This document shows, one piece after another, positions 3,027-60,784 of a stretch of DNA of 64,000 nucleotides (positions within the stretch are counted from its first letter, which is position 1; each line of letters opens with the position of its first letter). The DNA is from Azospirillaceae bacterium (GTDB lineage Bacteria; Pseudomonadota; Alphaproteobacteria; Azospirillales; Azospirillaceae). The notes below the pieces were generated by a model. That model was not told the origin of the DNA, did not search any database, and worked only from the letters and a program-made list of their open reading frames with translations. The stretch spans positions 2,170,501 to 2,234,500 of the forward strand of contig JAPWJW010000003.1 of the NCBI GenBank assembly GCA_028283825.1, given 5' to 3'. A program made the translations under genes and the position numbers.

Positions 3027-3134
3027 CCCTCAATTGCCGGGCGCCCGCATCCGCGGGCTTGGCTTCCTCACTTTCCAGTCAGCTACGCTCCCCGGAAAGC
3101 TCCGGCGGCTGCGGTCGCAGCCTACAGCGGCACA
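3027..3134 (-). repeat. Dispersed structured intergenic repeat, copy 1
   Basis: Full-length member of the family described in the findings, read on the minus strand. It has the stem GGCTGCG-AC-CGCAGCC, the block GCCGCCGGA, paired GCTTTCC / GGAAAGT, and a stem closed by the GGAT loop (CCCGC-GGAT-GCGGG). It ends with the family's TGAGGG-type terminus at 3027 and abuts the 28-bp palindrome. Confidence 0.8.
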
Positions 3135-3142
3135 CATGCATG

Positions 3143-3176
3143 AAAAAGGCGCCTTCCTTCGGGAGGGCGCCTTTTT
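3143..3176. terminator. Bidirectional intrinsic terminator
   Basis: AAAAAGGCGCC and GGCGCCTTTTT flank a short paired TTCC / GGAG segment with a TTCG loop. A-runs and T-runs on both sides let it work in either direction, serving accA from the left and the small minus-strand gene from the right. Confidence 0.85.
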
Positions 3177-3271
3177 CTTTGGCGGGATGGGGACCCGTGC
3201 GGGCTACGGCTCCGCCTGTCCCCGACGCTTGCGCGCGGGGGCGTACGGCCTTGCCGGCAGGGTCGGGAAAG

Positions 3272-3565
3272 CTAGCTGCGCAGCACCAGGCGGGAACAGC
3301 CGCCGCCGGCCGGCAGCACATCGCTGGCCAAGCCCGCCAGGCTCAGCATGGCCTGTACGTCCAGGATGGTGTCGGTGGGGCGGGTCAGTGTCAGCCGGAC
3401 GTCCCGGCAGCCCATCTTCCGGAAGCGCGCGACCGCGTCCAGGATCTGGCGGGCGGGGGCGGCGGCGGAAGGGGGCGGATCAAAAGCACTGGGGGTGGCT
3501 GCCAAAACGGCGGCGGCCATGCCGGGTTCCGGATTGATGGCTCCGGTCGCCTCATGCGGATGCAT
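3272..3565 (-). CDS. Small hypothetical protein (97 aa)
   Basis: Unrecognised small cytoplasmic protein. The ATG at 3565 is chosen because AGGGA sits about 6 bases upstream; an in-frame ATG at 3652 has no such site. The N-terminal half is Ala/Pro-rich. The C-terminal half (DAVARFRKMGCRDVRLTLTRPTDTILDVQAMLSLAGL) looks folded and ends in GGGCSRLVLRS. There is no membrane segment or signal peptide. It converges on accA and is separated from it by a terminator and repeat copy 1. Coding bias agrees with a real gene, but function is unknown. Confidence 0.55.
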   Translation of the reverse strand: MHPHEATGAINPEPGMAAAVLAATPSAFDPPPSAAAPARQILDAVARFRKMGCRDVRLTLTRPTDTILDVQAMLSLAGLASDVLPAGGGCSRLVLRS

Positions 3566-3729
3566 GCGAGGTCCCTGGTTGGGGTTCGCCCGGGATGGAC
3601 GCCCCGGGCAATTAGGATATTGAGACCAATTGAGGCTTTTCCGCGACGGCAAAGTTGGGGCTGCGGCGCATTTTCCCCATCAGGGGAGGACCAGGGCGAC
3701 GCAGCCCCGGATTTGATACTGCGAAAGCG

Positions 3730-4734
3730 TTACAGAAGTTCGGCGATCTGTACCGCGTTCAGGGCCGCACCCTTCAGCAGCTGGTCGCCGGCGACGAACA
3801 GCTGGATGGAACGGCCGCTGGGGTCGCTGATGTCCTGGCGGATGCGGCCCACCAGGATGTCGCCCTGGCCCGACGCGTCCACCGGCATGGGGAAGTAGTT
3901 CTTCTCCGCGTCATCGACTATACGCACGCCCGGCGCCGTGGCCAGGATGTCCTTGACCTCGGCCGGGGTAATCGGCCGCTCGAACTCCACCGTCAGCGCC
4001 TCGGAATGGGCGCGCAGCACCGGCACGCGCACGCAGGTGGCGGAGATGCGGATGTCGGCGTCGCCGAAGATCTTCCACGTCTCCGTCACCATCTTCATCT
4101 CTTCCTCGTTATAGCCGTTGGCCGGGTCGACCTTGGCGTTGTGGCTGAAGAGGTTGAAGGCGTAGGGGTGGGGCAGCACGGTGGGGGTGAAGGGGCGGCC
4201 CTCCAGATAGGCCCGGGTGCCCTCGCGCAGTTCCTCCATGGCGGCGGCACCGGCGCCGGACGCCGCCTGGTAGGTCGCGGCGATGAAACGCGTGATGCGG
4301 TTCTTCGCGTGCAGCGGCCATAGCGGCACCAGGGCTATGATGGTGGAGCAGTTGGGGTTGGCGATGATGCCCTTGTGCTGCTTGATCGCACCCGGGTTCA
4401 CCTCCGGCACCACCAGGGGGACGTGGGGGTCCTGGCGGAAGGCGCTGGAGTTATCGACAACGACGGCGCCCGCTTTCACGGCGATGGGGCCATAGACCTT
4501 GGAGATGGAGCCGCCGGCGGAGAACAGGGCGATGTCCACGCCCTCGAAGCTGTTCTCGTCCAGCGCCTGGATGGTGATCTCTTTGCCTTTGAAGGTCATG
4601 GTTTTGCCGGCCGACCGGGCCGACGCCAGCAGGCGCAGCTCGGACAGGGGAAACGCGCGCTGCTCCAGGCACTCAAGCAGCTCGACGCCGACGGCACCGG
4701 TGGCACCGACGATGGCAACGACGGGCAAGGCCAT
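3730..4734 (-). CDS. asd: Aspartate-semialdehyde dehydrogenase
   Basis: NADP-dependent reduction of aspartyl phosphate to aspartate semialdehyde, the branch point toward lysine/diaminopimelate, threonine and methionine. The 334 residues are normal for the family. The N-terminal dinucleotide-binding motif is VAIVGATGAVGVELL, and catalytic Cys129 lies in ANPNCSTI. GAGGAT about 8 bases upstream supports the start. The gene stands alone on the minus strand with an intergenic repeat upstream. lysC, the preceding pathway step, is 40 kb away at 45.1 kb. Confidence 0.96.
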   Translation of the reverse strand: MALPVVAIVGATGAVGVELLECLEQRAFPLSELRLLASARSAGKTMTFKGKEITIQALDENSFEGVDIALFSAGGSISKVYGPIAVKAGAVVVDNSSAFRQDPHVPLVVPEVNPGAIKQHKGIIANPNCSTIIALVPLWPLHAKNRITRFIAATYQAASGAGAAAMEELREGTRAYLEGRPFTPTVLPHPYAFNLFSHNAKVDPANGYNEEEMKMVTETWKIFGDADIRISATCVRVPVLRAHSEALTVEFERPITPAEVKDILATAPGVRIVDDAEKNYFPMPVDASGQGDILVGRIRQDISDPSGRSIQLFVAGDQLLKGAALNAVQIAELL

Positions 4735-4873
4735 GACCTAAAATCCTCAAAGACGACAGGTTGAAATAAGTGAAACGCGAGGCGCCATCCTCTTGTTCGT
4801 TTCGTTCCTTCGTCAAGCGGACGACTCGCAGGTCTGCCCTGTCTCCATGCGCAACCTAAGCAAGTTTATTATC

Positions 4874-58989: not shown

Positions 58990-59846
58990 GTGACCTGCTT
59001 CCCTTGAAGGACGTGCTGAAGGCGGCGGAGGTGCGGCTTGCCGCCGCCGGCTGCGCCAGCCCGCGCCTGGACGTGCGCCTGCTGGCGGAAGAGGCGCTGG
59101 GCTGGTCGCGCACCGTCCTGCTGCTGGAGGGCGACCGTCCGGTGCCACCGGGGGCCCAAGCGGCGCTGGCGGCCCTGGTGGAACGCCGGGCGGCGCGGGA
59201 ACCGGTATCCCGCATCCTGGGACGCCGCGAGTTCTGGAGCCTGGAGTTCCATCTGGCCCCCGACACGCTGGACCCTCGCCCCGACACCGAAACCCTGGTG
59301 GAAAGCGCCCTGCGCCACCTGCCGGACGGCGCCCATCCCCGGCGTCTGCTGGATCTGGGCACCGGCAGTGGCTGCATCCTGCTGGCGCTGTTGTCCGAAC
59401 TGCCCGGCGCCTGGGGCCTGGGCGTGGACATCGCCCCCGGTGCTGCCCATGCCGCCGTCGCCAACGCCCGGCGGCTGGGCTTCGCCGACCGCAGCGCCTT
59501 CCTGGTAGGCAGTTGGGTGGATGCGCTGGCCGTTGGCACCCGGTTCGACGCCATCCTGTCCAATCCGCCCTATATCCCGGCCGCCGATATCGAAGGGCTG
59601 GAGCCGGAGGTGCGGACCTTTGATCCCCGGCGGGCGCTGGATGGCGGGGCGGATGGCCTGGACCCCTATCGCCATCTGGCCCGGGTGGCGGGCGATCTGC
59701 TGGCCCCCGGCGGCATTATCGCGGTGGAGCATGGCGCGGGGCAGGGTGCGGAGGTTGCCCACCTGTTCGCGGATGCCGGCCTGATGGTCCGGGACCGGGT
59801 GGACGACCTGGCGGGGCACGACCGCGTGGTGGTCGCCGGCGCCTGA
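58986..59846 (+). CDS. prmC: Release factor glutamine N5-methyltransferase PrmC
   Basis: Methylates the Gln of the GGQ motif in release factors. 286 residues from a GTG at 58986 that overlaps the prfA stop. The N-terminal helical substrate-binding domain precedes the SAM domain ([34 protein letters not shown]) with the NPPY motif in [20 protein letters not shown]. Confidence 0.95.
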
Positions 59847-60186
59847 CGGGCCCTTTCGCCGGCGGATGCCGGTGGCGCGGGGCGGCTTATCCAAAAAAGA
59901 TGTTGGATTAGTGGGATACAGCGGTTAGGGTCGTTTTGCGTGGTGAAGGCCGAAGGGGCGACGCGCCAGGTCCTAAACGGGGAAAACCCTGGGGATGTGG
60001 CTAGCGTTCATGGGCCGATGATGAACACCACGGCATGCCAGTTTGCCCAGCATGGTCGATCCGGATGGTTCCCCCGATGACGGGAGTGGATTCCGGAATT
60101 CGGATGCGGCGGCGCGGATCGACAAGATCCGCCCCCTTTGGCTTTAGGCATGCATCGAACTCCAACGGGGCTAGAGCAGCAGTCGG
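59847..60186. other. Intergenic region before the DUF4167 gene
   Basis: 340 bp without a gene. No terminator with a T-run and no recognisable promoter or repeat stands out. Confidence 0.4.
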
Positions 60187-60657
60187 ATGAGACAGGGACC
60201 GAACTCCAGGCGTTCGCGTGGGCGCGGCAGTAACAATAGCGGTGGCAATGCCGGCGGTAACGGCGGCGGCGGCGGTAATGGCAATGCCGGGAACAATGGT
60301 GGCGGCAACCGCCGTCAGAACGTTCCCCTGCGCCACCAGAACTTTGACAGCAACGGCCCGGATGTCCGCATCCGTGGCAACGCCTTCCAGGTGCATGAAA
60401 AGTACCTGGCCCTGGCCCGCGACGCGCAGTCGTCCGGTGACCGGGTGGCGGCGGAAAACTACCTGCAGCATGCGGAGCACTACTTCCGTATCATCACCCA
60501 GATCAACGAGTCCGAGCAGCGGCAGCGGGGCGGTCCCGAGCCGCGCGGCGGTTACACCAACCAGTCGCAGCCTGGCTTCGAGGGCGAAGAGGGTGAGGCG
60601 GGGGATGAAGGTGAGCCTGACGGCACCGAAGACGAACGCGAGCCGATCAGCGCGTGA
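60187..60657 (+). CDS. DUF4167 domain-containing protein
   Basis: 156 residues. The first 45 are basic and Gly/Asn/Arg-rich (RRSRGRGSNN...GGNRR), likely disordered and RNA-binding in character. Then comes the conserved DUF4167 core (VRIRGNAFQVHEKYLALARDAQSSGDRVAAENYLQHAEHYFRIITQINE) and an acidic tail. In alphaproteobacteria this family typically sits downstream of prfA-prmC, as here. Function is not established. Confidence 0.9.
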   Translation: MRQGPNSRRSRGRGSNNSGGNAGGNGGGGGNGNAGNNGGGNRRQNVPLRHQNFDSNGPDVRIRGNAFQVHEKYLALARDAQSSGDRVAAENYLQHAEHYFRIITQINESEQRQRGGPEPRGGYTNQSQPGFEGEEGEAGDEGEPDGTEDEREPISA

Positions 60658-60663
60658 TAGGAG

Positions 60664-60698
60664 AAAAAGCCCCGCCCCCACAGGTCGGGGCTTTTTTT
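60664..60698 (+). terminator. Intrinsic terminator after the DUF4167 gene
   Basis: AAAAAGCCCCG pairs with CGGGGCTTTTTTT around a C-rich loop and ends in a run of seven T. Confidence 0.9.
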
Positions 60699-60706
60699 GT
60701 ATGTTT

Positions 60707-60784
60707 CCCCAGGCGGCGGGCGGGGTATCCGCCCGCTTGGGGCTTATCGCTTCACTCCAAACGGCCCCGATGCCCATGCCGCTG
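60707..60784 (-). repeat. Dispersed structured intergenic repeat, copy 10 (shortened)
   Basis: Minus-strand copy: AGCGGCATGGG, then CGGGGCC, the third-stem region reduced, AAGCGATAAGCCCCAAGC and the stem GCGGGC-GGATA-CCCGC. The first hairpin's second arm and part of stem 3 are missing. Confidence 0.65.

Follow-up and report, generated by a model that had tools for sequence, protein, structure and literature searches.

Multi-hairpin intergenic repeats of Nitrospirillum and other Alphaproteobacteria: an apparently uncatalogued family of probable MITE-like elements

Repetitive extragenic palindromic (REP) elements are high-copy intergenic palindromes, many of which lie near stop codons, mostly in convergent or co-directional gaps, and they are suspected of roles at transcript 3' ends (available portions of PMC3733652 and PMC12306157). 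Individual REPs are palindromes of 20–40 bp that occur singly or in dimers (available portion of PMC3733652). Bacterial miniature inverted-repeat transposable elements (MITEs), specifically RUP, Correia/NEMIS, ERIC/RU-1, and YPAL/RU-2, are short, non-autonomous, mobile, and mainly intergenic, and they duplicate their targets; most have TA termini and are A+T-rich (available portion of PMC2229807). PMC2229807 (available portion) also describes CIR, an alphaproteobacterial intergenic repeat of ~110 bp built of stem-loops with a linker and marked by GANTC in a loop. Members of the IS1031 subgroup of the IS5 family of insertion sequences (ISs) prefer TNA and generate a 3-bp repeat (available portion of PMC12016507). 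Here, we describe a family of multi-hairpin repeats found in a 64,000-nucleotide stretch, hereafter the window, of an Azospirillaceae bacterium (GenBank assembly GCA_028283825.1, contig JAPWJW010000003.1, positions 2,170,501 to 2,234,500). The available portions of PMC3733652, PMC12306157, PMC2267715, PMC2229807, and PMC12016507 contain no account of the element, nor is it named in the open-licence literature that was searched, a body of work outside which most subscription papers fall. A preliminary description of the window knew of no matching named family. That view stands after comparison with Rfam 15, in which the only match in the window at gathering score is a tRNA. In Rfam E-value scans of six loci, only CC3552 overlaps a copy, with 24.7 bits and E 0.94 against a gathering score of 50.

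The family very probably consists of small, non-autonomous, MITE-like transposable elements that insert with a 3-bp, mostly TNA, target duplication. A complete copy, of ~130–165 bp, opens with a TACC-like end and hairpin 1, continues through a core of three hairpins and a tail like CCCGGCGNYTGAGGG, and closes with hairpin 5 and a GGTA-like end. The core consists of hairpin 2 (GACN loop in Azospirillaceae), hairpin 3, and hairpin 4 (GGAT or GGAC loop), and hairpin 5 is missing from many copies.

Near-identical copies are present in the genome indicated to be Azospirillum ramasamyi (G033). There, 10 of 18 copies are matched by another that is identical over 110 nt, and the values for the others are 91.8–99.1%. 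These copies have sharp ends, TACC and GATGATA, with an imperfect TAYCRYCGAGCGTAAR at both ends. In 14 of 16, the 3 bp on the two sides match (ten TGA, three TCA, and one TAA), and in the other two they differ by one base; in six of 19, a called gene's stop codon immediately precedes the copy. The arrangement TNA-TACC...GGTA-TNA is also found in several copies from other genera. Duplications were counted only in copies with both ends readable by our patterns: 16 of 19 A. ramasamyi elements (20 loci), nine of 11 from one Rhodospirillales metagenome-assembled genome (MAG), nine of 16 from other genera, and 20 of 101 from the window genome, the 11 MAG copies and the 16 from other genera having been chosen by eye from 25 and 31 rows. 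Across these four groups, 29 of 54 duplications are identical, whereas 10,000 permutations made within groups give 13.9 on average and 23 at most. The 5'-side 3-mer is TGA or TAA in 29 cases versus TCA or TTA in eight, a stronger imbalance than would be expected if the TNA target were symmetric.

The mmsB locus provides a filled site together with its empty counterparts. In Azospirillum argentinense Az39, the locus reads GGCG-TGA-[element]-TGA-AAGG, with the mmsB stop TGA duplicated. In MTCC4035 (A. argentinense) and in Azospirillum brasilense MTCC4038, the locus is empty and reads GGCG-TGA-AAGG; TSH58 is also empty and differs just upstream. Seven records matched in two pieces flanking the missing element, and three of them were aligned. 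In RefSeq, the mmsB insertion lies directly 3' of the stop, and another insertion lies directly 3' of the stop of a c-type cytochrome gene. In a second pair, A. brasilense MTCC4038 versus TSH58, a copy shortened at its 3' end is bounded by TGA on either side, and the flanks are less clear.

The proposed mechanism is as follows. A staggered cut at insertion would duplicate the 3-bp, mostly TNA, target, and such duplications are seen in relatives. The stop codons TGA and TAA suit this target, and insertion there would rebuild the stop codon ahead of the element. The gene would therefore survive, as seen at one filled/empty locus and as suggested elsewhere by position. Insertions between divergent genes would presumably be purged.

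In the window, copies were located with R1, a covariance model of copies from the window genome ("own" copies), with a structure that we wrote on a 32-copy own-genome alignment. Extents and gaps were checked against gene calls made for this analysis, in which the caller covers 83% of the DNA. The preliminary description had placed ten copies in noncoding gaps and had given an order of hairpins. All ten stretches were read, every one lies in a gap by the gene calls, and the hairpins follow in the same order. Its extents were incomplete: copies start ~4 nt earlier, at the TACC-like sequence, and hairpin 5 and an end lie beyond 3027 in the first copy. Eight of the ten copies listed here score at least 58.8 bits in the R1 search of the window.

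2992 to 3134, minus strand: copy 1, 107.2 bits; core at 3027–3134, hairpin 1 disrupted.
2992 to 3026, minus strand: extension of copy 1 read from the sequence, with hairpin 5 at 2999–3026 and the end ACACGTA at 2992–2998, then TCA at 2989–2991.
4870 to 5002, plus strand: copy 2, 147.3 bits (match at 4874); full core, without hairpin 5.
10061 to 10111, plus strand: copy 3, 27.7 bits (match at 10060); deletion derivative with hairpin 1, GTAGG, and tail.
18206 to 18323, plus strand: copy 4, 121.4 bits.
32058 to 32190, plus strand: copy 5, 120.4 bits.
36989 to 37119, plus strand: copy 6, 132.9 bits; occupies the convergent gap 36977–37125.
43680 to 43797, minus strand: copy 7, 128.2 bits; outer helix of hairpin 4 in a GGC/GCC version.
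44659 to 44777, minus strand: copy 8, 58.8 bits; divergent subfamily with a different hairpin 3; BLAST finds related copies elsewhere in congeners.
57733 to 57866, plus strand: copy 9, the exemplar, 144.5 bits (match at 57737); between the GcpE (ispG) and release factor 1 (RF-1, prfA) genes.
57737 to 57765, plus strand: exemplar hairpin 1 (helix 1), from the fold.
57769 to 57784, plus strand: exemplar hairpin 2 (helix 2), loop GACC.
57791 to 57821, plus strand: exemplar hairpin 3 (helices 4–5), with an inner GC/GC hairpin.
57835 to 57850, plus strand: exemplar hairpin 4 (helix 7), loop GGAT.
57851 to 57866, plus strand: exemplar tail GCCCGGCGCTTGAGGG, whose GGC pairs with a GCC 5' of hairpin 4 (helix 6).
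60707 to 60784, minus strand: copy 10, a decayed remnant, 10.6 bits (match at 60706), E 0.35.

One weak R1 match, at 23771–23892 (22.8 bits), lies in a convergent gap; from its sequence, it looks like an ordinary terminator hairpin with a U-run and not like a copy.

Beyond the window, we sampled 60 own-genome stretches of 20 kb, hand-set at round coordinates, one of which (L100) was known beforehand to contain copies. Together with the window, these yield 112 R1 matches at E ≤ 0.001 in 1.264 Mb: nine in the window and 103 outside, of which three are opposite-strand echoes of stronger copies. The first 20 stretches alone give 30 matches of at least 39 bits, and at least 150 own-genome candidates reach 111 bits or more. 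Extrapolation from the sampled stretches suggests that the window genome carries roughly 540–615 copies. Gene context was scored for 107 of the 112 matches, leaving out the echoes and two matches below 38 bits. Convergent gaps hold 51 copies, co-directional gaps 26 on the same strand as the genes and 23 on the opposite strand, and divergent gaps one; two copies lie at stretch ends, and four overlap the end of a called coding sequence by 27–40 nt. When these last six are removed (n = 101), the tally is 51 convergent, 49 co-directional, and one divergent, versus 19.6, 46.1, and 35.3 expected from the length of gaps of at least 100 nt. Orientation relative to local GC skew is unbiased (40/84).

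Copies crowd against stop codons: 69 of 101 have one at most 15 nt away. Of the 77 copies whose hairpin 1 side faces the 3' end of a gene, 12 have the stop codon at exactly 4 nt, directly before the TACC-like start, while the neighboring distances of 3 and 5 nt account for two copies and one copy, respectively. At the other end, four of 20 own copies with hairpin 5 terminate exactly at the stop of the opposite gene. TNA specificity combined with loss of damaging insertions may suffice to explain this placement, because TGA and TAA are themselves TNA sequences at the edge of tolerated space. On this reading, no recognition of translation ends is needed.

The paired architecture is well supported by covariation. 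In the 32 own-genome copies, 98.8% of cells are paired, versus 86.4% after shuffling and 29.8–47.4% for slid structures. Double-sided changes occur at 22 of 38 pairs (129 such cells), and none of 500 shuffles reached any of five covariation measures, which bears out the original view of a dispersed structured repeat with covarying stems. RNAalifold, unaided, recovers the helices of hairpins 2, 3, and 4 and small outer ones and misses hairpin 1, and seven window copies fold better than their shuffles (z −1.6 to −5.1). One pair in helix 6 switches from C-G to G-C in four of 32 copies, and G-U is retained at another position in 26 of 32. Among 101 own copies, the tail is followed by an inverted repeat in 29, and a hairpin 5 with a readable end is present in 20. 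Some copies form tandem arrays of two to four units spaced by ~105–130 nt (L122:1011-1484; L135:15664-16012; L109:17342-17716; L265). The cores in L265 are set apart by one hairpin each, which makes hairpins 1 and 5 look as if either could stand for the other.

The preliminary description took the double-sided changes as an argument for selection on RNA or cruciform structure. The covariation is indeed strong, but that description is incomplete, since the repeat is also mobile, has defined ends, and duplicates a 3-bp target. Paired changes could, moreover, arise from template-switch repair of palindromes. Since, in addition, orientation relative to genes is even and structure scores are alike in both orientations (p = 0.55), covariation by itself is no proof of selection on RNA. 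A serious alternative is that the copies are neutral parasites whose palindromic stems are restored by template switching, making the covariation mutational and not selected. Among seven orthologues, swaps such as GCCGCC/GGCGGC to GGCGGC/GCCGCC occur with no mismatched intermediates in hairpins 2 to 4, as this alternative would have it, and the indifference of structure score to orientation points the same way. Template switching is nonetheless disfavored, because it would keep neither the persistent G-U pair nor the unpaired motifs (the GAC and GGAT loops, AAGCCAAG, and TGAGGG), which are conserved over several genera. We regard it as possible, with the balance against it.

In relatives outside the genus, hairpin 4 and the tail are the most obvious shared parts; on reading, all parts follow in the same order, and hairpin 3 is shorter. 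All 33 copies tested, from seven genera, form hairpin 2 as a stem of 6 bp (counting G-U) that encloses GACN or GGCN, and its loops in more distant relatives also include GAA and others. The sequence before it is GTAG or ATAG in most own copies and GAGG, AAGG, or others in relatives' genera. In R2, a model built from 24 relatives, 15 of 21 pairs change on both sides (0/500 shuffles). R2 has matches in 50 of the 82 genomes examined from the family and in 18 of the 289 from the class, and 15 of these 18 lie outside the family. The exact pattern of hairpin 4 plus tail is present in at least 120 stretches. Among the 80 pattern matches listed, all are from Alphaproteobacteria or, for some MAGs, are labelled Proteobacteria only; Roseomonas, Falsiroseomonas, Magnetospirillum, Telmatospirillum, and Sphingomonadaceae are represented. 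By these matches, the core has a patchy distribution across Alphaproteobacteria. Two queries of a phage collection gave no match, and IMG/VR gave 15 matching stretches. One IMG/VR contig of 48 kb, UViG_2708742415_000004 (L368, L377, L378), contains 14 listed pattern matches, some in tandem; this contig may be host DNA or a prophage.

A further idea is that of an "inverted MITE," in which the part shared across the class is the inner, strand-specific folded core and not the ends. According to this idea, a trans-acting enzyme recognizes the core as RNA or single-stranded DNA and, together with a TNA cut, favors translation stop sites. If so, stop sites would be a harmless landing place, with the stop codon regenerated before the element. 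We consider this version unlikely.

The history of individual sites bears on whether the family instead represents a vertically inherited functional RNA, such as a 3' UTR element or terminator, selected site by site with little mobility. Six congeners (G001–G006) were compared. The data indicate that the window genome belongs to the same genus as the Nitrospirillum congeners, which include N. viridazoti CBAmc (G006), N. amazonense BR 12005 (G002) and BR 11622 (G004), and N. iridis (G005); G017 is indicated to be Niveispirillum cyanobacteriorum. Site 57737, in the GcpE/RF-1 gap, holds a copy in all six congeners (5/5 by synteny and the sixth by locus L034). Across these seven sequences, 99.3% of cells are paired, and 10 of 40 pairs have double-sided changes, a count matched by none of 500 shuffles. 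Site 4874 is occupied in three of three congeners (G006, G002, and G003) and also in G005, where the copy is split over two fetched stretches. These filled sites, with the paired stem changes at 57737, speak for a functional RNA. The retained G-U pair also accords with a functional RNA, as does the 36989 gap, in which a hairpin with a U-run stands in place of the copy in the three congeners read (G001, G003, and G006).

Against a mainly vertical history, sites 3027, 18206, 32058, and 36989 have no model match in the congeners examined (four, four, five, and six genomes, respectively). The identical dispersed copies and the exact empty site in Azospirillum, together with the even orientation to genes, count against it too. 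We therefore consider little-mobile functional RNA improbable as an account of the family. Other sites hold partial copies. At 10061, by our reading of the alignment, G003 has hairpin 1, hairpin 2, and tail, and G002 and G006 have only a hairpin resembling hairpin 1. At the counterpart of 60707, G002 carries a more complete copy of 71.1 bits, which is why copy 10 is judged decayed. Among own copies of at least 100 bits (68 with a value), identity to the best paralogue has a median of 88.6% and a maximum of 94.4%. The window-genome copies are old by this measure, and some in Nitrospirillum have been inherited in place.

Two further features at these sites deserve mention. Between the exemplar and the RF-1 gene, a leader at 57867–57903, GGCTTTAGTCAGCCCGGAYACGGGATGACGG, is near-invariant in seven species and varies less than the element itself. 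Within 43680–44777, a methyltransferase-like gene (43910–44653) lies between two copies and is reversed relative to the right flank in all six congeners; copies stand at the borders of this gene segment in several congeners. The reversal is probably an inversion by recombination between copies.

RIME of rhizobia and Bru-RS of Brucella are older alphaproteobacterial repeats, and our family could be a branch of these or of the CIR of Caulobacter. CIR comes near in length and in its fold of arms with a linker (available portion of PMC2229807). GANTC, the CIR mark, occurs in only 2/32, 0/24, and 0/16 curated copies of our element and in 22 of 112 loosely matched rows. Identity with CIR is rejected on this near-absence in curated copies, and descent from the wider group is improbable as well.

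The preliminary description also suggested a search for a REP-associated tyrosine transposase (RAYT). This suggestion found no backing, as the Y1_Tnp domain has no match in the window genome or in any of the six congeners. It is also absent from copy-bearing G017, G023, G026, G030, and G034, with controls positive (5/14, including E. coli). To our knowledge, a 3-bp target duplication is not expected of HUH enzymes, and it speaks against RAYT mobilization. Therefore, even granting the GTAG(G) before hairpin 2 in most own copies (replaced by GAGG, AAGG, and others elsewhere), Y1_Tnp matches in some copy-bearing relatives (G010, G033, G011, and G022), and a REP-like placement by stop codons in convergent and co-directional gaps (available portions of PMC3733652 and PMC12306157), we consider it highly improbable that these are REP or bacterial interspersed mosaic elements (BIMEs) spread by RAYTs.

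For the MITE-like reading, the mobilizing enzyme is most likely a DDE transposase acting in trans, a choice based solely on the 3-bp duplication. PF13340 (IS4/5-type) domains are present in seven of eight genomes searched, including 16 of equal score in A. ramasamyi. Mobilization by IS5/IS1031-type elements was rejected: terminal repeats are not shared where they were read, and among PF13340 element ends read at 11 locus pairs, none starts TACC. A longer autonomous relative was sought in A. ramasamyi as paired ends ~1 kb apart. The sole such pair proved to be an IS5-type element of ~0.85 kb inserted in hairpin 1 of a copy, with TTA on both sides (L222:1904-2914), whose transposase was searched as two separate pieces. 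Derivation from IS200/IS605 or IS607, with a TnpB-linked omega-RNA, was likewise set aside, as the window genome has neither PF01797 nor PF07282.

Several observations weigh against MITE-like mobility as we propose it. No transposase with matching ends was found among the IS5-type elements whose ends were read, other families lying outside the search, and copy-rich G010 has no PF13340 match. Several distant relatives (e.g., L273, L302, and L322) have no recognizable ends, and the Az39 copy starts TGCC and ends ATTGAA, so ends vary. Among the four groups scored for target duplication, the excess is not significant in one of the two nine-copy groups (5/9 identical, P 0.13; 5/9 with P 0.03 in the other), and only five of 20 own copies have an identical duplication (P printed as 0.0). 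Stop codons also often lie 9, 10, or 12 nt from hairpin 1 (six, four, and four copies). Four of the 12 own copies at the stop position are preceded by TAG, which is not TNA and makes up 12.5% of stops; TAG may be a later change. At site 57737, the number of pair types, one of the five covariation measures, is unexceptional (61/500 shuffles as high). Finally, the stems in Nitrospirillum remain paired, perhaps because the folded 3' region contributes to transcript ends or curbs read-through, a role suggested for REPs. By that analogy, such a role is possible, though the less likely case. Support comes neither from terminator counts with the element masked (at least five T of seven; 13/47 gaps with a copy versus 27/62 without, p = 0.11) nor from orientation to co-directional genes (26 same, 23 opposite).

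If the MITE-like reading holds, the repeats constitute a large family of mobile, hairpin-forming DNA, present in several hundred copies in one genome, that is apparently uncatalogued, CIR having been compared by description and RIME and Bru-RS being named without sequence comparison. Named Azospirillum strains offer near-identical copies, exact ends, and one locus with clear filled and empty states. The spread of high-copy, REP-like repeats in the absence of RAYTs can therefore be put to direct test. If insertions land in stop codons, this would account for their settling next to genes that stay intact. Moreover, sites occupied over several species offer natural cases in which an RNA-like fold has been kept or repaired in one place.

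Set beside known systems, the element shares high copy number, intergenic palindromes, stop codon proximity, and gap types with REPs and BIMEs (GTAG and CGTC super-families). It is unlike them in its four to five hairpins over 130–165 bp, its 3-bp duplication, its unpaired core motifs common to several genera, and the lack of a RAYT in the host genus. The IS1031 subgroup has the same TNA target and 3-bp repeat; in contrast, the IS5-type ends read do not begin TACC, and a copy-rich genome exists without PF13340. CIR is alike in length, intergenic site, stem-loops with a linker, and host class, but GANTC is nearly absent from curated copies of our element. Like MITEs, the element is short, non-coding, and dispersed, with a target site duplication. 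It differs from MITEs in that no partner IS was found among the IS5-type elements with ends read, and in that its palindromic termini vary by genus while the inner structured core is shared.

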